From a virus: a stretch of 40,190 nt of DNA. Positions 22,008 through 36,711 of the stretch are shown piece by piece. The stretch spans positions 1-40,190 of the IMG/VR virus record IMGVR_UViG_3300036790_000808; one strand, given 5' to 3'. The notes beneath the pieces were generated by a model that saw nothing but the letters and a program-made list of their open reading frames with translations, was not told the DNA's origin and ran no database searches. The position numbers and the translations under genes are program-made. Positions within the stretch are counted from its first letter, which is position 1. Each line of letters begins with the position of its first letter.

Positions 22008-23507
22008 TCAACCGAGCGGGTTCCAATCGTGCTGCGCGTCGCGGATGCGCGACGCCAAATCCTGCTCCTGCGCCGCGGCGCGGCCGCGAATTTCGATGTC
22101 CTCTCCGCCAGCCGAAAGCAGGTACTGCAGGCTATCATGCGGGTGAGAATACTCGTTCTTGTCGACCTCCGTGCTGTAACGCTCGGTGTCCACGCCGGCG
22201 AGCTTGCGAAAGCGATAGCCCGAATTGAACCCCTCGCGGAGAACAGGGCAAGCGGGGCTGAGCAGCAGAGCTGGCACGCCGGCATCGATCAGCATCGTGA
22301 GCGGCCGGCGCACCGCCTCCCAACGCGGAAGTTGCTGATTTGTCGGCGCGGGATCTACGCGCAAGGCCGCGCGCGCAGACACGATCTCGATCCAGCTGGC
22401 CTCGCCGGCATGCTTGTCCGCGCCGTACGCTGCAGAGGGATCCGCCCAGGCCTGGATCTCGGTGATGCCTTCGAAATTTTCGTGCAGGCATTTGGCGATC
22501 ATGTCGGCGAAACGTAGAGCGCCGGTAACCGATTTTGCTTCCGTCGTCAGCTCGCGATAAATCCGCCACTGGCCGTTCGGCATGCGCTGACCGAAACAGG
22601 CCGCGGGCGTTCCGCCGGCATCAAGGCCGATCTTCAGCGCCAGTCCGGGAATTGGCTGCAGGATATGATCGGCAACGTGAAGCTGATCGTTGAATTCCGG
22701 ATAGATCGGCTTTCCGGCGCGGCTGTAGCCGGGCTTGTTTTCGATCATGCGCGCGATGTACCAGCGCGGCTGGCCGCGGCGCTGCTTCGCGTAATAGCCG
22801 GGCGGCAGGTTCGGGATATTCTCGGCTTCCGGCGACAGCGCACTGGGCTGGCGCAGGAGAACGCCATATTGCGAGAAACGCTCTGCATCCGGATCATCAG
22901 CATCCGCGGGCTTGTCGAGAAAGACGCGCTGGTAGAGCCATGCGTTCAATTCCGGCGCATTGCAGTCGGCGACGACACCGTACCAGCTCGGTCCGCCCTC
23001 GCTCATGTCGGGGTAGCGGCCGACGCGGCCGCGGGCAAACGTGTAAACGTCTTCCGCCAGCAGATCGCACTCGTTCAGGAAAAACGCCGTCGGCTCATAG
23101 CCGCGCATGACATCTTCCGCAGCGTTCTCGCCGATCGCGATGAAGTCGATCTGGAAACGCACCAGCGATCCATCCGGCAGCACGAAATCGACGACATGTT
23201 TTGCCGGCGCGTTTTCCGCGCCGGTGAATTCGCCGGCGTCGCGCGGCATCAACTTCCACCAGCTTGGCAGGGTGGAGCGCCAGAGCTGCCGATAGTTGGC
23301 GTGTACGACGCAGACTTTGAACTTGCGGACGCCGTCTCGCGTGGAAGGCTTTTGCGCCGCGGCGCGGAGGATCAGCTTCGTGAAGATCGTGCGCGTCTTG
23401 CCGGCGCCGATCGGGCCATTCAGGATCTCGACGTCGCGATCGACGCGCATGTACTGGCTCGAGACCGGGCCGGGCGATCGCCATTGCAGATCGAGCTTAA
23501 TCGGCAT
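22008..23507 (-). CDS. terL: Terminase large subunit
   Basis: This 499-aa packaging motor has a Walker A (GPIGAGKT, about residues 31-38), a Walker B-like FFLNECD with adjacent acidic residues, and a C-terminal nuclease half with acidic positions in GLDAGGTPAACFGQ and ADPSAAYG and a late HPHDSLQYLL. The length is normal for the family. The ATG at 23507 was chosen; a TTG at 23525 would add 6 residues. It overlaps the small-subunit gene by about 11 bp. Confidence 0.92.
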   Translation of the reverse strand: MPIKLDLQWRSPGPVSSQYMRVDRDVEILNGPIGAGKTRTIFTKLILRAAAQKPSTRDGVRKFKVCVVHANYRQLWRSTLPSWWKLMPRDAGEFTGAENAPAKHVVDFVLPDGSLVRFQIDFIAIGENAAEDVMRGYEPTAFFLNECDLLAEDVYTFARGRVGRYPDMSEGGPSWYGVVADCNAPELNAWLYQRVFLDKPADADDPDAERFSQYGVLLRQPSALSPEAENIPNLPPGYYAKQRRGQPRWYIARMIENKPGYSRAGKPIYPEFNDQLHVADHILQPIPGLALKIGLDAGGTPAACFGQRMPNGQWRIYRELTTEAKSVTGALRFADMIAKCLHENFEGITEIQAWADPSAAYGADKHAGEASWIEIVSARAALRVDPAPTNQQLPRWEAVRRPLTMLIDAGVPALLLSPACPVLREGFNSGYRFRKLAGVDTERYSTEVDKNEYSHPHDSLQYLLSAGGEDIEIRGRAAAQEQDLASRIRDAQHDWNPLG

Positions 23508-24006
23508 CGGGAGCCCGATCGACAATGGCGCCCGTTAGGGTGAATACATCGCCATCATCCGGTGTCTCACCAGAAGGCGGTGGTTCAACGTAGATCGCCA
23601 GATGCACAGCCTTGGTGTTGGTAATATCAACAGATACGGGCATTTTTTGATGGACGTATGGCAGCATGGCGATAGCCGCCAATCTTTTTTCTTGCCATGC
23701 CTCGAGTTTCGAGCATCCTAGTTGGAGACAGAGTTCATCGACTCGGGCCGTCGCCATCTGCGCCAATACTTCGAGCGGCGACCCGTAGCGTCCCAGAAGG
23801 TATTCGGCCCTGGCAATCGTTCGTTTATTCCGCGAGTTCAGCGGGCGACCGACCTTTTTGGCGGCGTCTTGCGTCTGCAGCTGCACAAGCGTGGCTGGCG
23901 ATCCCGCTTCGGGCAATCCCAACAAGTCGAGTTGCTCGGCCTCTTCGTCGATTTCATCGCGCGTAGCAGCCATGGCGAGCGCTACGGCGGTTTGATCGCC
24001 GCTCAT
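23497..24006 (-). CDS. Terminase small subunit-like protein
   Basis: The 169-aa product from MSGDQTAVALAMAA has a central GRPLNSRNKRT motif, an AT-hook-like DNA-binding element common in small terminases of this kind, followed by a helical stretch with WQEKRLAAIAMLPYVHQKMP. Small terminases recognise the packaging site and load the large subunit, encoded directly downstream. A longer in-frame start exists at 24084, without clear support. It is the first gene of the late operon. Confidence 0.75.
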   Translation of the reverse strand: MSGDQTAVALAMAATRDEIDEEAEQLDLLGLPEAGSPATLVQLQTQDAAKKVGRPLNSRNKRTIARAEYLLGRYGSPLEVLAQMATARVDELCLQLGCSKLEAWQEKRLAAIAMLPYVHQKMPVSVDITNTKAVHLAIYVEPPPSGETPDDGDVFTLTGAIVDRAPDAD

Positions 24007-24030
24007 AGTTCGCACCCCGACCCAATTGGC

Positions 24031-24059
24031 ATTGGTAGATTTTCCGCGATCCGCGTCAA
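24031..24059 (-). promoter_or_regulatory. Possible late-operon promoter
   Basis: On the minus strand TTGACG (24054-24059) is followed after 16 bp by TACCAA (24032-24037), about 25 bp upstream of the small terminase ATG. The -10 match is weak. The placement at the head of the 23-kb late operon is the main support. Confidence 0.3.
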
Positions 24060-24219
24060 AACTGCCCCGATTTGGGCTAAGCACACAAGAAGGGGGGCGC
24101 GGGGCGCGCGCGGCGCGAAAACCGGGGTGCCCCCGGCCCAGCCGGATTTCGTCGACCAGGCTCAGGAGGCTGATTTCAGATCAGCAGGCAGGGCCACCGA
24201 TCCGCGAGGAGGGTCAATG

Positions 24220-24451: not shown

Positions 24452-24714
24452 CGTTCCATGACGGTATGTCGCACGGAACAGCACATGGAACAGCTAAGCT
24501 ATTGATAGATATATATATTCTCTATCATGTTCCGCTGTTCCACTGTTCCATCGCGCGCGCGCCCATGAGTTCAGCCAGAGCGCGACACACATCGCTCGCT
24601 CTCACGCGTATCCCGCACGGAACAGCAGAACAGTGGAACAACACGGCATTAATCGAGCATTATCATAGGCTTAGCTGTTCCACAGGCTGTTCCCTCCCCA
24701 ACCCCGATGGAACA
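24452..24714. other. Candidate replication origin with symmetric TGTTCC arrays
   Basis: Hexamers TGTTCC/GGAACA are placed with exact two-fold symmetry about position 24584. GGAACA stands at 24475 and 24487 (12-bp step) and three TGTTCC at 24528, 24536 and 24544 (8-bp step). On the right three (G/A)GAACA stand at 24619, 24627, 24635 (8-bp step) and two TGTTCC at 24676 and 24688 (12-bp step). GGAACAGCTAAGC and its mirror image also match at both ends. An AT-rich dyad (24503-24527, arms TGATAGA/TCTATCA around TA repeats) suggests an unwinding element. Extra single copies are CGTTCC at 24452 and GGAACA at 24709. The arrangement fits an origin bound by an initiator, or a large operator. Confidence 0.65.
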
Positions 24715-24862
24715 GCAACGACGCGGCGGCGCGACTTGATTTTCAATCCTTTGGTTGGGTGTGGGCAGCCAGTCAGATTTGAACGCTAAGGCGGGAAATG
24801 TGGCTTGGAGGTGCGGAGATCGATGCGGTGCGCGCGCTGGCCGCGCGCGCGCTTCATGCGGT

Positions 24863-24920
24863 CAAGCGTCCGCCGCCTGATAGCATCGCAGACGGATAGT
24901 CCTGTGCCGGCGGACGCTTG
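24863..24920. other. Long-arm inverted repeat
   Basis: CAAGCGTCCGCCG (24863-24875) and CGGCGGACGCTTG (24908-24920) are perfect 13-bp arms separated by 32 bp; four more pairs are possible outside a one-base bulge. It sits upstream of the rightward promoter and may be a termination, RNA-structure or protein-binding element. Confidence 0.6.
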
Positions 24921-24939: not shown

Positions 24940-24957
24940 CGCGAAAATATTTTCGCG
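24940..24957. promoter_or_regulatory. Palindromic operator O1
   Basis: CGCGAAAATATTTTCGCG is a perfect 18-bp palindrome ending 6 bp before the -35 box of the rightward promoter. It is AT-rich in a GC-rich setting, as expected for a repressor or activator site. Confidence 0.65.
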
Positions 24958-24963
24958 AGAGAC

Positions 24964-24992
24964 TTGACGTAGGAAACTGTTTCCTATTCATT
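24964..24992 (+). promoter_or_regulatory. Promoter with internal operator O2
   Basis: TTGACG (24964-24969) is followed by TAGGAAACTGTTTCCTA (24970-24986), a perfect odd 17-bp palindrome that fills the spacer. A -10 may be TATTCA (24985, 15-bp spacer) or TTCATT (24987, 17-bp spacer). A protein bound here would block RNA polymerase. It would drive the genes from 25064 on. Confidence 0.6.
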
Positions 24993-25063: not shown

Positions 25064-25315
25064 ATGCAACAGTCCACTTATACCGCAGCTGAACTTTCCG
25101 GCGATGCGGATTTTCCGACCCATCTTTCCGGCCGCCAGGCGCAACGTCTCATCCGCGACCACGATCACAAGGCCGCCGCCGCAACGGACGGTTCGATCCT
25201 TGTGACCTACATCTGCACCAAGGGCGGCAAAACATTCGAAGCGCTCAAGCGCTTTACCCCAACAGTCGACGGCACGTTCCGCGCCGCGCCGATCCTGTTG
25301 TGGCTGGGCTATTGA
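25064..25315 (+). CDS. Hypothetical protein, first gene of rightward cluster
   Basis: The 83-aa product (MQQSTYTAAELSGDADFPTH...) has no recognised domain; it is hydrophilic and ends in APILLWLGY. A GGAGG site lies 9 nt upstream of the ATG. The next gene also begins with MQQ and follows after 11 bp, so the two are co-transcribed from the promoter at 24964. Confidence 0.65.
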   Translation: MQQSTYTAAELSGDADFPTHLSGRQAQRLIRDHDHKAAAATDGSILVTYICTKGGKTFEALKRFTPTVDGTFRAAPILLWLGY

Positions 25316-27235: not shown

Positions 27236-27459
27236 CGCTTGGTTTCCTTGTCCGCGTCGATCGTGCCGGCGGCGCGGCCGCGCAGGTCCTCGAGCTCGGC
27301 CTTGTCGATCACGACCTGGCCGGTGAATTTGAACAGCGCCAGGAACAGCTGCCCCACGAACTGCGCGCCGCCCGGAAAGCGCCGCACACGATCCGCCAAC
27401 GCCGCCAGTGCCAGACAATCCGCACGCTGATCAAGCGTAAGCTTGTCGAGATCGCTCAT
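27232..27459 (-). CDS. Hypothetical protein
   Basis: The 75-aa product (MSDLDKLTLDQRADCLALAAL...) is helical with a hydrophobic middle (FVGQLFLALFKFTGQVVI), too polar to be a clear membrane helix. It is coupled by ATGA overlaps to both neighbours. Function unknown. Confidence 0.6.
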   Translation of the reverse strand: MSDLDKLTLDQRADCLALAALADRVRRFPGGAQFVGQLFLALFKFTGQVVIDKAELEDLRGRAAGTIDADKETKR

Positions 27460-28322
27460 GGTCGCGCACTCGGCACATAGCGCGCGCGCGGCGCGCCCTC
27501 GTCCTGCAGGACGCGGAGGTACTTGTCCGTTTCACACAGGATGTTCGGCACGTCGCTGAAATCCATCCGCACGCCCGTCGCGTCGAAAGCGAGCCGGTAA
27601 ATCTCGCGCATTTCGGAAAGCGCATAAGGCTGCGTGAATTTTGTGTTCAGCGGCCGCCCATAGATGCGATTGAGGCCCCGCATGGTGCCCGGTCCTGCAG
27701 CTGCCCACGTTTCGCGATCGCTCGCATCCTCCATCAGAGCGGTGAAGCGCATATCCACCACTGCCTGATAGGCCATGAAAGGCCCCCAGCAATTGTAGCG
27801 CCTCAGCGCCGCATGCGCGCTCTGCAGCGTTTTCCCAGGAACAAAACAACCCGCCAGCCGCGCGCGATCGCGCCAAAGATTGCCAAGCGTCACCTGCGCG
27901 ACGTGGTCGGTCTTCTTCGTGCCCTTCGTCGACGGCGCCGTGATTGTGTAAGCGCCGGTAAAGACCTTGTCGCCGCTGTCCGCGATCTCGTTCAACTCAT
28001 TCGCCAAGGCTGAGAGAGAAAAGAATTTGCTGGTCGGCCAGCCGTCGCTGCCAATCAGCCATCTCAGTGTGGGCGGCCAGTTGATGACGCGCGCGGCGCA
28101 GAGCATGAACCATAGATAAGGATGATCGCGGAACGGCTCGCGAATATTTTGCCGGATCCAGATGGTGACGCTGTCATCCTCCCGGCGCACGTTGCAGAAG
28201 CGGTAGTTCGCGAGCGCCGCATCGTCCGTCCAAGGCGGCGGCTCGCCAGCCTCCCGCAGCACGCGGATTGCCTCACGCTTGGTGACCCACTGCCACAACG
28301 GTTCAAAATTGCCTTTGCTCAT
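27456..28322 (-). CDS. Thymine-hypermodification pyrophosphorylase / 5-hmdU kinase helical-domain family protein
   Basis: The 288-aa product carries, near its N-terminus, AIRVLREAGEPPPWTDD then YRFCNVRREDDSVTIWI. I recognise this pattern as that of the alpha-glutamyl/putrescinyl thymine pyrophosphorylase and 5-hydroxymethyl-dU DNA kinase helical families, which act in phage thymine hypermodification and relate to helix-hairpin-helix DNA glycosylases. The rest is helical and covers the whole gene. No P-loop kinase, dUMP hydroxymethylase or aminotransferase gene is present here, so it is an orphan. It follows the helicase-like gene by 7 bp. The start at 28322 was chosen for its position after that stop. 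Confidence 0.65.
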   Translation of the reverse strand: MSKGNFEPLWQWVTKREAIRVLREAGEPPPWTDDAALANYRFCNVRREDDSVTIWIRQNIREPFRDHPYLWFMLCAARVINWPPTLRWLIGSDGWPTSKFFSLSALANELNEIADSGDKVFTGAYTITAPSTKGTKKTDHVAQVTLGNLWRDRARLAGCFVPGKTLQSAHAALRRYNCWGPFMAYQAVVDMRFTALMEDASDRETWAAAGPGTMRGLNRIYGRPLNTKFTQPYALSEMREIYRLAFDATGVRMDFSDVPNILCETDKYLRVLQDEGAPRARYVPSARP

Positions 28323-28329
28323 ATCGCCC

Positions 28330-30246
28330 TCAATCCCTGTCCCGCGCGTCGACGAGCTCGCCGTCGTCGTCATTGTCGGCCGCCGGCGGGAACACCGTGT
28401 CCCAAGGCAACAGGCAGCAATAATTCAGCGTGCCGTCGAAACGCAGCCGCAGCGGCTCGCCTTTGCCGCTGCGCGTCACCGCGCCGTGCAGCCGCGCCAT
28501 CATCTGCGCCCAGGCGCCAGGCGCGCCGGGCAAGCCGCTCCAATCCGTCTCGCGGAATATCCGGCCGAGGCCGGGATGATTGTTGCTGATGGCCACCTGC
28601 CAGACTTTCACCTGGGGATCGGTGTTGCGCGCATCGCGGAACAGCTTCACGCCGATCTGCTCGAGCGCGGCGACGGAGGGCATGTCGTTGCTGATCGCCG
28701 TGGTGCCGCGCTCGCTGCGCGCGCCGCGCAACAGCCGCGCCACGCTTTCGCGCGATCCACCGCGCCACATCTCCACCGTCGCGCCCAGCAGATGGGCAAG
28801 GCAGGCCTGGTGCGAGCTGGAATAGCCGCTGGTCTCCGGCAAGCTCGCCGCCGGCAGGCGCGCCGCCCAGGCCGCCGCGCGGTCCGCCTCGAAGCCTTCG
28901 AACATCAAACAATCATAGGCCGCGCCCAGCGCGCCGAACTGGTCGCGGCCGCGGGCGTTGTGCCCGTTCGCCTCGAGCGCGCGGCGATAGGCGCGGAAGG
29001 TCCTCTTGTAGCGCGGCCATTCCGCCAGCGCGCGGCCGCGCAGCTGGCGGCCGATGCGCTCCCATTCGGCGCGCTTGCCCAGGATGCTGTCGTCTTCGTC
29101 CTCGCCGGCGTCTTCGTCCAGATCCTCGCCCGGCTCGCGCGTGGGCTGCGCGCCTTCCCATTCGACCTGGTCGAGCTGCAGGATCGCCATGCGGTTCTTG
29201 TCCTGCTGCGGCAGGCTGGGAATGACGATCGACGAAAACTGGAACGTGTTGCGGCTCACGAAGGTTTGCGCCGCGCCACCCGGCTGTCCGCGCAAGCTCT
29301 CGCCGCCGCTCGACGCGATGCGCGCGAGCTTCACGATATCGCGCGCGCGGCTGTTGTTGCCTTCGCTTTCGATTTCGTCGAGCGACACCGGCAGCGCCGT
29401 GTCGCGCACGCGCTGCTTGATGCCGGCCGGCGTCGCGTCTTCGCTCTTGATCATCGCGCGGCCGCCGAAAATCCAGCGCGTCAATTTCATCAGCGTGGAT
29501 TTGCCGGTGCCCGATCCGCCAGTGATCCATTCGATCGGCCGCCAGTCCGGCGCCGCGCCATAGATGCCCGCGCCGATCCAGCCCAGATGCAGCATGGCGT
29601 CGAGATCGCCGCGCTCCCAATTCCACGTCTTCAGCTTCGCCAGCAGCAGCGCCGCGGGCCCCCTGTCGCCGCCGCGCGCAGTCTCCGGATGCGGCTGCGG
29701 TGGTGCGGCCGGATAGAGCATCTTGCCGCGCAAGCCGGTGGCCACCTTCATGCCGTTGGTGAGGAAGAGATAGTCGCCGCAATGCATCACCAGCGTGCCG
29801 TCATCCTCCATCCAGGTGCCGACGCCGCGCACGTTATCTTCCGGGCTCCAGATGCCCTTGTCATGGCAACTCGCGATCAGCACCGGGCTCATCAGCCCAT
29901 GGTCGAAGTTCACGACGTGCTTGCCGCTGCGATCGTATTTCGGCCATTGCGCCCGCAGGAATTCGTCGCCGCCGAACAAGCCCAGGATCGCGTTACGCCC
30001 GATATCCTTGTCCAGCAGCATCTGGAACTGGCCGCGGGCGTTGAGGAAGTAATACTCCCGCTGGTTCACGCCCAGCGCCTGCACCGGCGAGCTGGGCGGC
30101 AGCCGTGGCGGCGCGATGTGCCGCCCATCGGGCGGCTGCGCCGGCGGCTCACCGCCGCCCTTGCCGCCGCCACTCTTGCGCCCGCGCTTCTCCGCCTTGT
30201 CGAAGGCGGCCGCGATCGAGATGACTTTGTCGGAGTGATCGGTCAT
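28330..30246 (-). CDS. AAA+/helicase-like replication ATPase
   Basis: The 638-aa product from MTDHSDKVISIAAAF has a basic Gly-rich N-terminal stretch (RKSGGGKGGGEPP), a Walker A (GGSGTGKST, about residue 246), then SEDATPAGIKQRV, a Walker B (LPVSLDEIE) and an arginine-rich sensor region. This resembles the ATPases of phage and island replication modules (DUF927 / D5-like class), which act as replicative helicases. It is likely to work with the Toprim primase 2.6 kb upstream. The frame is open further upstream, but the ATG at 30246 overlaps the previous stop (ATGA). Confidence 0.75.
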   Translation of the reverse strand: MTDHSDKVISIAAAFDKAEKRGRKSGGGKGGGEPPAQPPDGRHIAPPRLPPSSPVQALGVNQREYYFLNARGQFQMLLDKDIGRNAILGLFGGDEFLRAQWPKYDRSGKHVVNFDHGLMSPVLIASCHDKGIWSPEDNVRGVGTWMEDDGTLVMHCGDYLFLTNGMKVATGLRGKMLYPAAPPQPHPETARGGDRGPAALLLAKLKTWNWERGDLDAMLHLGWIGAGIYGAAPDWRPIEWITGGSGTGKSTLMKLTRWIFGGRAMIKSEDATPAGIKQRVRDTALPVSLDEIESEGNNSRARDIVKLARIASSGGESLRGQPGGAAQTFVSRNTFQFSSIVIPSLPQQDKNRMAILQLDQVEWEGAQPTREPGEDLDEDAGEDEDDSILGKRAEWERIGRQLRGRALAEWPRYKRTFRAYRRALEANGHNARGRDQFGALGAAYDCLMFEGFEADRAAAWAARLPAASLPETSGYSSSHQACLAHLLGATVEMWRGGSRESVARLLRGARSERGTTAISNDMPSVAALEQIGVKLFRDARNTDPQVKVWQVAISNNHPGLGRIFRETDWSGLPGAPGAWAQMMARLHGAVTRSGKGEPLRLRFDGTLNYCCLLPWDTVFPPAADNDDDGELVDARDRD

Positions 30247-30611
30247 CGCGCACCGCGCAGATGCGCGAACTCTAACCGGACAGCCTTGACAGCCCGTGCA
30301 ACGACCGAGGAATTCAATTCGTGATCCGCGTCCCCGCCGCGCATGCACGCGGCCACGAGGTAAACACGTCTGCAATCCCTAACGTGTTCTTGCTGCGAAA
30401 ACGTCATCCAATTGATATCTTCATACACGACTAACAATGCTTGCCGCACGGCCTCTTCGATATCTTCCTGACGGAATATCGCGATCATGGCATCCGCCCA
30501 GGTCGCGCGCGGTAAAACAGGCTGCAGGTGCGCGCCGATCGCGGCATCGAAATCTTCCGCGTTCACGGCCGCGCAGCCATCCGGCGGCGGCGAACTCACC
30601 CACTTACTCAC
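30243..30611 (-). CDS. Hypothetical early protein (GTG start)
   Basis: The 122-aa product starts with GTG (30609-30611) inside GTGA, overlapping the stop of the restored upstream gene. It includes WADAMIAIFRQEDIEEAVRQ and EHVRDCRRVYLVAACMRGG; no domain is recognised. The coupled GTGA start is useful evidence for the true end of the gene upstream. Confidence 0.65.
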   Translation of the reverse strand: MSKWVSSPPPDGCAAVNAEDFDAAIGAHLQPVLPRATWADAMIAIFRQEDIEEAVRQALLVVYEDINWMTFSQQEHVRDCRRVYLVAACMRGGDADHELNSSVVARAVKAVRLEFAHLRGAR

Positions 30612-30831
30612 CGCACGGCCTCCCGCTCGTCATCCTCGCGCTCATCGTCATCGAAGAGGCAAAGCGCCTCGAGCAGCTGTCCGGAACACTGCACCCGCAA
30701 CACCCCCCCCCGAACGGATACGCCGTCTCCAGGTCCGCGCCATCGATCAGCGCCAGCAACAATTCGCGCGCGGACGCGCGCGGCCGCGAGGCCATCGCTC
30801 TCGATCGCAATGTGCCCCGCAGCCGCGTCAT
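30608..30831 (-). CDS. Small early protein, apparent frameshift at a G9 tract
   Basis: The uninterrupted frame gives a 75-aa protein whose second half changes character after FGGG. Shifting frame at the G9 tract (30703-30711) gives instead LRVQCSGQLLEALCLFDDDE followed by REDDEREAVR and a stop at 30608, which overlaps the next gene's GTG start. That makes a coherent acidic protein of about 74 aa and restores coupling. A tract of 10 (or 7) G would put the frame right. It may be a phase-variable tract or a sequencing error. Function unknown. Confidence 0.55.
30703..30711 (-). repeat. G9 homopolymer inside a coding region
   Basis: Nine G on the minus strand mark the point where the true frame of the small early gene appears to shift. 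Confidence 0.8.
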
Positions 30832-30835
30832 GCCG

Positions 30836-31682
30836 CTAACCGAGTTCCTTTTCGATCAGCCGCAGCGCCACATCGATCAGATGCTGGCGGATGCTGCCGC
30901 CATCCAGGCTCGCCTTGCGCACTGCGGCCGCGTAGATCTTCGCGACCGACACCGCGTTCACGGCGGCGAGCGTTTTCTGGCCGTGCCGGCGCCACAGCGG
31001 GCGCTGCTTCAGAACCTCGCAAAGTCCGGAGATGACGGCCGCGCGCAGCAGGCCAAGATTGCCCCCCCCCCGTGCCCGTCACCAGCACGAGCGCTTCGGT
31101 GAGGATCTCCGCGCCATGGATCCGCATGCAGCTCTGCAGCGTGCCGATCGCGTGCGTCTCGCCGATCTTGGTGATGGTGGTGGCGTAGCGCGGAATGGTG
31201 ACGCATGCGTCGTTCAACACGCGCCGCAGCGCGCGCGCCGCCTTGTCGCCACCGGCGAGCTTGGCGTGATAGATCTGCAAGCCGCTGATCTGGGTGATGT
31301 TGCCGTTGATGGTGGCGAAGCAGATCGCCTCTTCCTCCGCGTCCGCATCGATCACGTAGCAAGGCAGAAGCGGCACGCCGCTATACTTCGCGGCCGCGGC
31401 GTGGTGCTGGCCATCGATCACCGCGAACAACCCCTTCGGGCGGCGGCCGACAACAAGAGGCGAAAATCGCGACCAGCGGAATTCCTCGACGATCCGCTTG
31501 CAATTGCGTAAACCGTCGCCGCGGATGTCCCTTTGATAGAGAGGATCGATACGCAAAAGCGCCACATCGATCCATTCCAGCACGCCGGCGTTACCGAAAT
31601 CCGGTGAAATCGCAGGCGCATTCGCGAACTGCAAAGAAGGTAGCTCGAGAAGCACGTCGGGCGCGGATTGATTGTTTGTCAC
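30836..31682 (-). CDS. ParB-like protein, frameshifted at a G10 tract
   Basis: The first 204 residues hold a ParB/sulfiredoxin-type domain: IDVALLRIDPLYQR, then LFAVIDGQHHAAAAKYSGVPLLPCYVIDA, and FATINGNITQISGLQIYHAK (DUF6551-like). The ParB N-fold can bind DNA, hydrolyse CTP or act as a nuclease. After a G10 tract (31062-31071) the open frame turns into Arg/Pro-rich shadow sequence ending at 30828. With 9 G, the sequence continues as NLGLLRAAVISGLCEVLKQR ... LIDVALRLIEKELG and stops at 30836, giving 281 aa. It overlaps the 128-aa gene upstream by 4 bp. Confidence 0.75.
31062..31071 (-). repeat. G10 homopolymer inside the ParB-like gene
   Basis: Ten G on the minus strand at codons 204-207. 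The downstream frame is restored by loss of one G. Confidence 0.85.
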
Positions 31683-32563: not shown

Positions 32564-32835
32564 CCGCCCTTCTCCCGCTCGCTCTTCTCGATCCGCACGC
32601 CGAACAGCGCGCCTTGCGTGCGCACCCAATGCTTGAGCGCGCGCACGTCGCCCGCTGTGATGTGGACGTTGTTGCCGGCATCGCTCATCACGATGCCGTC
32701 GTCCGGGATGTCGACGTAGCCCGGCGCTTGCTGGAAGACAGCGAAAGCCGCGCGCAGATCGCCACCGCAATTGCACGGCTGCGTCGCCGGCAGCGTGCTG
32801 CGCGGGCAGCTTCCGAAATGAATGCCGCTGCTCAT
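32554..32835 (-). CDS. Hypothetical protein with N-terminal Cys cluster
   Basis: The 93-aa product (MSSGIHFGSCPRSTLPATQP...) has four cysteines (SC, PCNCGG near the start, one near the end), possibly a metal site, and a hydrophobic strand pattern (YVDIPDDGIVMSDAGNNVHI). The ATG overlaps the primase stop; its end overlaps the DUF5675 start by about 10 bp. Function unknown. Confidence 0.6.
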   Translation of the reverse strand: MSSGIHFGSCPRSTLPATQPCNCGGDLRAAFAVFQQAPGYVDIPDDGIVMSDAGNNVHITAGDVRALKHWVRTQGALFGVRIEKSEREKGGCT

Positions 32836-33941
32836 GCCGCGCGTTCCTTTCCCTGCAGGATGTCGTTGAAGTCCTTGAAGCGCGGATCCGCGCGCACGAT
32901 GGCGGGCTCGAAGCCGCGCTCGCACAATCTGTCCATCGCCTGGTCGAATTGGCGCAGCGTGGTGGGATCGGTGTCGTTCTGTTTGAGGATGTAGACGCCG
33001 CCCAGCTGCGCCGGCAGCACCAGGCCGCCGATATTGGAGAGGCTGACGCCGGCCAGGCTGCGGATCTCCGGCTTGGCGATCGCGCCCGTCAGCGCATCCT
33101 CGATGCCTTCGGAGACCTGTATCCATTCGCCTTCGGGCGCGGCCTTCAGCGTCTTGCCGCTGGCGCCGCGCGTCAGCCGGATGGAGCCGCCGGCGAAAGG
33201 CCCCTTCACCTGTTTGCCGGTCTTGCAATCGGGCCAGCAATGCTTGGCCCAGACGCCGCGGGTGCAAGCGAGATAGGTGCGATGCGCAGCCGCGAAGCCC
33301 TGCGGCTCGCCTTCGCGGCTGATGCAGGCCACCATGCCCGGAAACGGCCCCATGCGGTTCGCGGCCCAGATCTCGGGATGGAAACGTAGCGCGTGCGGAA
33401 TGCCCTCCGGCAGCTTTGTCACGTCGATGTCGCGCGATTTGAGATAGAGCGAGGCGGGATCGGTGCCGTCGAGCGGCTTCGCGTCCAGCCACAGCTTGAA
33501 CGCGCCGGCGCGCGCCCGGCTGCGCAGCTCGGCCGCTTCCGCCTGGTCGCGCTTGACGCGCGCGGCGATCGCCGCGGCCTCGGCCGGGTCGGGCGCGTGC
33601 CCGGTGAGCCCCAGAAAATCCAGCGCCCAGGACACGGCGCCGGCGCGCACCACGCGCCCGGCCGCATCGCGCTGGGCCTTGTATTCGCCGCGCGTGGCGA
33701 ACTTCGCGATCAGCGACAGCAAGCCCTTGCCGGCGCAATCCTCGAAGCTGAAATCCTTCCAGATGAAACTGCGCGTGTTGTACGAGAACGACGTCCAGTT
33801 CGGGTCGCTGCGCAGCGGGTTCTGCATCCAGATGTCATGGCCGCGGATCTGCACCGCGCCGAACAAATGGATGCAGAGCTCCCGCGCGCGCCCCGCCAGC
33901 CGCGCATTGATCTCGTCGAGGGAATAGCGCGCTTGCATCAT
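32832..33941 (-). CDS. Toprim-type DNA primase (DUF7146 family)
   Basis: The 369-aa product has an N-terminal region resembling the CHC2 zinc-binding part of primases (SFSYNTRSFIWKDFSFEDCAGKGLLSLIA) but lacking the full set of cysteines, then a linker and a C-terminal Toprim domain (QVSEGIEDALTGAIAKP, SLSNIGGLVLPAQLGGVYIL). The usual acidic pair after the last strand is replaced by KQNDTD. Such primases start phage DNA replication together with a helicase, here the ATPase downstream. It overlaps both neighbours by 4 bp. Confidence 0.8.
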   Translation of the reverse strand: MMQARYSLDEINARLAGRARELCIHLFGAVQIRGHDIWMQNPLRSDPNWTSFSYNTRSFIWKDFSFEDCAGKGLLSLIAKFATRGEYKAQRDAAGRVVRAGAVSWALDFLGLTGHAPDPAEAAAIAARVKRDQAEAAELRSRARAGAFKLWLDAKPLDGTDPASLYLKSRDIDVTKLPEGIPHALRFHPEIWAANRMGPFPGMVACISREGEPQGFAAAHRTYLACTRGVWAKHCWPDCKTGKQVKGPFAGGSIRLTRGASGKTLKAAPEGEWIQVSEGIEDALTGAIAKPEIRSLAGVSLSNIGGLVLPAQLGGVYILKQNDTDPTTLRQFDQAMDRLCERGFEPAIVRADPRFKDFNDILQGKERAA

Positions 33942-36222: not shown

Positions 36223-36711
36223 ATGATCGGCGAACGCATCGCGGAATTGCGCAATGGCAGGGGGCTTACCCAGCCCCAGCTGGCCCAGCGCCTGCACACG
36301 TCGCCCGTGCAGATTTCCCGCCTCGAGAACAATCAGCGCAAGGCCACCTATGACTGGCTTAAACGCATCGCCGATGCGCTCGACGTGAAGGTTTCCGATT
36401 TGCTGCCGGATGAAGACGTGGCCGATCGCCTGAGCGAGACCGAGCGCAGCCTGCTGGCGGAGTTGCGCGCCGATGGCGCACTGCCGCCGACCGAGATGCT
36501 GGCCATGGTTCGCGCCCTGAACAATTTCGTCCAGCAGCAGGCCAGCCGCCGCGTCACGCGCGGCGCCTTGCCGGGCGACCCGACTCAGGTGGCGCTGCTC
36601 GCCGATGCCTGGGCGGAGCTTTCCGCCGATCAGCGCAATAGCGCCCTCGACATGATCCGCGCCGCGGCGCGGATCGCGCCCGGCTACGCACAGGCCGCCA
36701 GAGCCGCCTAG
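36223..36711 (+). CDS. CI-like phage repressor
   Basis: The 162-aa product starts with a full XRE helix-turn-helix (IGERIAELRNGRGLTQPQLAQRLHTSPVQISRLENNQRKA) and continues with a helical C-terminal part (DMIRAAARIAPGYAQAARAA). It lacks a LexA-type peptidase domain, so release from repression would not be by RecA-stimulated self-cleavage. It faces the Cro-like gene and is the likely lysogeny repressor. No Shine-Dalgarno is visible, in line with a leaderless mRNA. Confidence 0.8.
   Translation: MIGERIAELRNGRGLTQPQLAQRLHTSPVQISRLENNQRKATYDWLKRIADALDVKVSDLLPDEDVADRLSETERSLLAELRADGALPPTEMLAMVRALNNFVQQQASRRVTRGALPGDPTQVALLADAWAELSADQRNSALDMIRAAARIAPGYAQAARAA

Follow-up and report, generated by a model that had tools for sequence, protein, structure and literature searches.

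The closest described relatives of the locus reported here are the replication origins of phage P4 and of PICIs. Cloning has shown that the origin of EcCICFT073, a PICI of E. coli CFT073, is needed for full autonomous replication, and its deletion reduces replication of the cloned rep-ori (PMC6092414). At the locus that we take to be EcCICFT073, judging by its approximate location in CFT073 and by the genes that it carries (integrase, primase, SSB, PerC-family regulator and capsid genes), we found one word, TCTACC/GGTAGA, in the region 3′ of the primase gene, at steps of 9, 46, 22, 11, 9, 31, 11, 22, 46 and 9. In P4 the annotated type-1 iterons (TGTTCACC) lie in ori and crr: ori1 has a pair at 9-10, then 43 bp, an opposed site, 22 and a triplet at 10-11, and crr has pair-43-opposed and lies just 3′ of the alpha gene, which encodes an SF3 primase-helicase. 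SaPI origins are directly downstream of the helicase gene, and their iterons are bound by the C-terminal domain of Rep, apparently as two hexamers (PMC7581432). In pRN1 and Bordetella phage BIP-1 the origin, whether shown to be essential or only predicted, is located 3′ of the gene for a primase-SF3 helicase (PMC4234260), although that region, unlike the array described here, is reported as a large stem-loop without iterons.

The DNA that we analyzed, here called the window, is the whole of the 40,190-base IMG/VR virus record IMGVR_UViG_3300036790_000808, which is marked linear. Unlike EcCICFT073, which is a satellite element, the window represents a phage that encodes a terminase and a portal of its own. 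The terminase large subunit (22008-23525, minus strand) has 35% identity to TerL of Pseudoalteromonas phage Y3 and 34% to TerL of the Burkholderia phage BcepC6B, and the portal is of the head-to-tail connector family (PF12236). The window also carries an integrase, a DUF7146/Toprim primase (32832-33941, minus strand), an SF3-type helicase (28330-30375, minus strand) and a CI-like gene (36223-36711). The array (24452-24714) lies between a TerS-like gene (23497-24084, minus strand; no family match, named from its position and conservation) and a plus-strand cassette beginning at 25064. We consider it very likely that the array is an origin of phage replication belonging to the P4/PICI type and that the SF3 helicase of the same phage binds it, although no binding or replication data are available.

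The window contains 28 copies of the word GGAACA/TGTTCC where 13 would be expected. Ten of these exact copies fall at 24475-24714, against an expectation of 0.085; for ten words in 263 bp the Poisson p is 5e-18. The array is built of two mirrored half-modules about 24584. On the left, two opposed GGAACA sites (24475-24480 and 24487-24492, plus strand, 12-bp step) are followed by a 35-bp arm that the second of them borders (24493-24527, 74% AT), and then by an inner triplet of TGTTCC words at 8-bp steps (24528-24533, 24536-24541 and 24544-24549, minus strand). A 69-bp core (24550-24618) separates this triplet from the right one, which reads GGAACA, AGAACA (one mismatch) and GGAACA (24619-24624, 24627-24632 and 24635-24640, plus strand); beyond it come the 35-bp right arm (24641-24675, 57% AT) and two opposed TGTTCC sites at a 12-bp step (24676-24681 and 24688-24693, minus strand). 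Five pairs are exact mirrors, each summing to 49168 (24475/24688, 24487/24676, 24528/24635, 24536/24627 and 24544/24619); they comprise nine exact words and the one AGAACA. The two outer sites do not form a mirror pair, being 2 bp off: CGTTCC (24452-24457, minus strand) has one mismatch and lies 23 bp from the next site, and GGAACA (24709-24714, plus strand) lies 21 bp out.

When the two halves are compared, they are identical at 29 of 30 bases within the words but at only 22 of 45 outside them, which indicates that the symmetry is kept in the words and does not come from recent duplication; mirrored IHF-type sites (see below) explain part of the matches outside the words. The core is 33% AT, not above the 36% of the window, and alternating purine-pyrimidine steps are common in it (CGCGCGCG; alternation 0.66). 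Across 99 arrays, both core and arms were AT-richer than their surroundings.

An earlier note, made from the letters of the window, had described an exactly symmetric array about 24584 with mirrored pairs summing to 49168, and this holds for five pairs. Its statement that ten hexamers mirror each other to the base holds in part, one mirrored word being AGAACA, and the outermost pair included in its coordinates (24452/24709) fails as a mirror. Its 12-bp outer and 8-bp inner steps are borne out by the site coordinates. The array does lie between divergent units, and primase and helicase genes are present in the same element. The AT-rich dyad that it placed on one side (24503-24527) is only partly right: it belongs to the left of two mirrored 35-bp arms, and the right arm is AT-rich as well.

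The window shares with EcCICFT073 a single word, a mirrored array and the same half-module, which in EcCICFT073 is made up of a pair at 9, an arm of 46, an opposed site, a step of 22 and a triplet at 11 and 9. The P4 iterons of ori and crr build this half-module too, and the P4 arm, measured between 8-bp words, is 35 bp, as are both arms of the window. The spacings are close without being equal: the arm step is 41 in the window versus 43 in P4 and 46 in EcCICFT073, and the inner step 8 versus 9-10. Opposed and outer sites are present in the window, but with two opposed and only one outer site per side. The combination of half-modules differs more. Compared with EcCICFT073, two iteron sets flank a central region in the window array, but EcCICFT073 has its triplets inward and its pairs outward, whereas the window has the 8-bp-step words inside, and the two words differ. 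In P4 a long distance separates the half-modules, which are ori1 and two direct copies in crr, with no joined mirror, and the orientation of the word relative to the pair is reversed. What is new here is that the half-modules, two in number, are joined pairs-inward and that they belong to a complete tailed phage; the P4/PICI type of origin was already known.

Each arm of the window carries an IHF-type site. The left one matches the consensus WATCAANNNNTTR exactly on the minus strand (24495-24507), and the right one (TATCATAGGCTTA, plus strand, 24661-24673) has one mismatch and occupies the exact mirror position. Such sites recur in other arrays: of 237 arm windows, 50 contained the consensus, 30 of them in one orientation and 20 in the opposite one, whereas shuffles gave about one, segments outside the arms two in 440 and cores one in 122; the positions of the sites within the arms are spaced one helical turn apart. 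In a set of arrays chosen by protein, 41 of 88 arms had the consensus at ≤1 mismatch, against 4.4 in shuffles. The forward form of the consensus was found in none of 64 arms of contigs from bacterial genomes, which come mostly from phyla not known to have IHF, and no IHF consensus was found in the arms of P4. The arm sites may serve IHF or a relative, which cannot be distinguished from sequence alone.

The mirrored geometry was reached by two kinds of search. In the search by DNA word, three words at 8-bp steps were found in at least 120 viral contigs, falling into two classes, direct repeats inside O-like initiator genes and intergenic mirrored arrays. Mirrored arrays with a core gap of 60-90 were found in 29 viral contigs, and those with a gap of 91-121 in at least 120. 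The plan was seen in 144 viral loci in all, and in at least 140 viral contigs besides the window, most of them in one lineage (109 of 151 grouped loci). Since these loci were selected for the word, they are uninformative on how common such arrays are. Their steps recur: the words of the inner pair are 8 apart, the arm that follows measures 41-43 or a helical turn longer, and after the opposed site and a step of 13-25 there are as many as three outer sites, spaced at 9-12. Among 122 non-redundant arrays compared with jittered distances, the core gaps (p = 2e-4) and the flank and arm distances (p < 2e-4) were helically phased, with a best period of about 11 bp. Eight cases in bacterial contigs place a mirrored array 37-213 bp downstream of a VapE-like, DUF5906, D5 or Prim-Pol gene; other bacterial contigs of the same set have unrelated neighbors. 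At the DNA level the array itself showed no direct similarity to annotated phages.

Some loci met in these searches stand apart. The direct 8-bp TGTTCCnn repeats were put aside as a separate class: in L053, L098, L120 and about 75 other loci they lie within an O-like replication initiation gene (phrog_2149) and encode GTGEQGNR repeats; their hexamer and their step are those of the mirrored arrays. Repeats near terminase genes in HTVC027P, DSL-LC04 and Pag-Yong1 were rejected for their other geometry; they include intergenic GCTTGA clusters in HTVC027P (L249, from 2805) and intergenic TCATAC repeats in Pag-Yong1 (L251, 5025-5380). No array was found in the pieces examined of the terminase regions of BcepC6B, Pseudoalteromonas Y3 and MEP301. 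The complete seawater phage 023Pt_psg01 (MW574966; L253, 13576-13790) has an array of this geometry built from the word GGCACA/TGTGCC, located where the replication module ends, ahead of the TerS gene. Several mirrored TGTTCC arrays with a conserved core occur in the one genome of Shouchella clausii AKU0647 (L267, L275, L278, L288), and similar arrays in other Bacillaceae (L254, L265, L271, L272, L289); we saw no large helicase-like ORF ending beside these arrays.

The second search started from the helicase protein. As a single query the window helicase gave no matches in the viral contigs, but an alignment of it with five relatives returned 80 loci. Three of the five relatives had come from word searches; a protein-pattern search is, however, blind to intergenic words. 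At each of the 80 loci the DNA on the two sides of the gene was scored, against 240 dinucleotide shuffles, for any hexamer that clusters in both orientations, and 70 held a two-orientation array above the largest of the shuffles. The array was on the 3′ side of the helicase gene in 67 of these and on the 5′ side in three, in many cases within 500 bp. Some of the loci nearly duplicate one another, which makes these counts non-independent. At constant geometry the word differed (GTTCC, GTTAC, GTTGC, GTTCT, GTCCC and a few such as AAGACA and CTAACA), and its similarity tracked that of the helicase (Mantel r about 0.2, p 0.0005-0.02). Because the word correlated alike with every region of the helicase (partial r 0.11), the domain that reads it could not be located.

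L301, the closest relative found (helicase 45% identical), repeats the gene order of the window, namely primase, helicase, array, TerS-like and TerL, and its left-half steps of 23, 12, 41 and 8 are those of the window. Arrays are also borne by the direct relatives L079, L125, L130, L136 and L143.

The helicase ORF has 681 residues and no Pfam match. Aligned with the five relatives, it shows the P-loop GGSGTGKST, a DExE motif and an SF3-like motif C in the family. An AlphaFold2 model made with 57 sequences (pLDDT 84.8) was ranked by Foldseek with NrS-1, African swine fever PrimPol, D5/E5 and SaPI5 Rep, all primase-helicases of the SF3/D5 kind, and a helicase profile matched a set of Prim-Pol/DUF5906/D5 and P4 alpha at E 3e-6. 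The fold of SaPI5 Rep matches the model; the window helicase is only distantly related to that protein. The SF3 fold of the window helicase is that of a predicted model, and its binding to the array is an inference. Because family conservation begins only at residue 44, a nearly invariant Met, the real start is probably near 30246, the TTG start of the ORF being too far upstream.

One support for the origin reading is the arrival of the word search and the protein search at the same geometry independently of each other. The earlier note had proposed a phage origin on which a large nucleoprotein complex assembles, and a check that it set was that the spacing should recur in related phages. The spacing is conserved in near and distant relatives, in the P4 ori and crr iterons and in the tested origin of EcCICFT073 (PMC6092414), which supports its proposal while leaving binding and replication without data. 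Its remark that no described origin with this exact geometry was known has partly failed, since P4 and PICI origins are described relatives. It missed the IHF-type sites and the cognate protein, which is very probably the SF3 helicase of the same element, again without binding data.

Several observations speak against an origin. First, the helicase gene of the window is not adjacent to the array, which lies 3.6 kb off on its 3′ side with other genes between, whereas the EcCICFT073 array is directly 3′ of its primase-helicase gene. Second, the half-modules are joined pairs-inward in the window, pairs-outward in EcCICFT073 and are separate in P4. Third, GC skew gives no clear support: the slope changes near 24 kb in the window, which is a weak signal, and no skew switch was found at the array of 023Pt_psg01, the one complete phage relative of the largest group tested. 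Finally, the P4 arms are without the IHF consensus, the specificity domain is unlocated, and the initiator of the largest phage group (109 loci) remains unidentified, because in all but one of its loci no SF3 gene was seen beside the array and most of its searched records gave only weak DUF5906 matches.

Three rival readings are weaker. The array might be a DNA packaging start (cos or pac) bound by the adjacent small terminase subunit. In favor of this, the array is just upstream of the TerS-like gene in the window and its direct relatives, and a TerS-like gene is near the array in the largest phage group too; TerS proteins bind repeated sites. Against it, arrays are 3′ of the helicase gene in the helicase-chosen loci and beside helicase genes in bacterial contigs, the L028 group has a VapE-type helicase and a structural-looking gene as array neighbors and no TerS, and the same half-module forms P4 ori and crr and the tested EcCICFT073 origin (PMC6092414). 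We regard packaging as very unlikely.

An operator, through which a phage regulator would control the divergent structural genes (leftward) and small-gene cassette (rightward), is less likely still. The array does lie between divergent units in the window, the CI-like gene is present, and phased multi-site looping is typical of repressors. However, relatives have in common the position 3′ of the helicase gene and not the divergent flanks, the helicase and terminase genes that flank the array running in the same direction in L079 and L293; a separate promoter-like sequence has its own 17-bp palindrome at 24964-24990; and the geometry is that of known origins. Lastly, a role in partition or segregation, with the ParB-like DUF6551 protein (30828-31682) as the binder, is suggested by weak matches of that protein to ParB-like families and by the M. 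xanthus parS, reportedly TGTTCCACGTGGAACA, which includes TGTTCC (PMC3899335); it can be all but dismissed, as the word drifts with the helicase across relatives, the closest relative has no DUF6551 match in its 13.8 kb, the inner triplets are 69 bp apart, unlike fused parS, and DUF6551 beside HMUDK_hel better suits a DNA-modification operon.

Returning to the origin reading, the fixed steps and the phasing point to a scaffold whose two arms are bent so that the opposed outer words return to the inner words. The TGTTCC/GGAACA words would be occupied by copies of the SF3 helicase, probably with a single monomer on each, while IHF or a similar bender at the site in each 35-bp arm would fold the outer opposed words onto the inner triplet. 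Each mirrored half-module would then nucleate one helicase ring, and the two rings would face each other across the 69-bp core, their proposed meeting site; two facing rings are assumed by analogy with SaPI Rep, apparently bound as two hexamers (PMC7581432). Melting by the rings would take place in the core or in the AT-rich arms, primers would come from the Toprim primase, the proposed partner, and forks would depart both ways. Where the window would first melt is uncertain, because its AT-rich DNA sits in the arms and not in the core. Binding, ring assembly, melting site and bidirectionality are all inferred.

A bolder reading, to which we incline by a narrow margin, is that one modular origin design is common to P4, PICIs and a broad variety of tailed phages. 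Its unit would be a half-module whose geometry is fixed, made up of a pair, a phased arm in which an IHF site is often present, an opposed site and a triplet, and used in three combinations (pairs-inward, pairs-outward and separated), with a word that drifts with the initiator. The origins of most uncultured phages are unknown, and the geometry has been found in a tailed phage, in many relatives and in contigs of several bacterial phyla. Constant geometry with a drifting word would permit word-independent origin finding, so that, if the design is real, origins and their cognate initiators could be found in uncultured phages by geometry alone. It would also offer a large natural set of initiator-word pairs for learning how helicases read DNA, and it poses the structural question of how a fixed, phased scaffold with a bend per arm loads two helicase rings. 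We saw no printed account of a phage-wide geometry in the open-access literature searched; one could exist beyond that scope.

Other features of the window deserve mention. Over 24-40 kb, the cumulative GC skew is flat to the left of the array and falls steadily to its right, despite mostly minus-strand genes on both sides. Between the array and the plus-strand cassette there is a 13-bp inverted repeat with a 33-bp loop (24862-24874, CAAGCGTCCGCCG, and 24908-24920, CGGCGGACGCTTG). Upstream of the cassette, 24940-24957 is a perfect 18-bp palindrome (CGCGAAAATATTTTCGCG), and 24964-24990 holds TTGACG and TATTCA spaced 15 bp, with a 17-bp palindrome (TAGGAAACTGTTTCCTA) between and overlapping both; these resemble, and may be, a regulated promoter of the cassette. 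The replication operon includes a gene with a 5-hmdU DNA kinase helical domain (27456-28373; PF18723) as well as that of the DUF6551/ParB-like protein, and the two together suggest hypermodified thymidine in the phage DNA.
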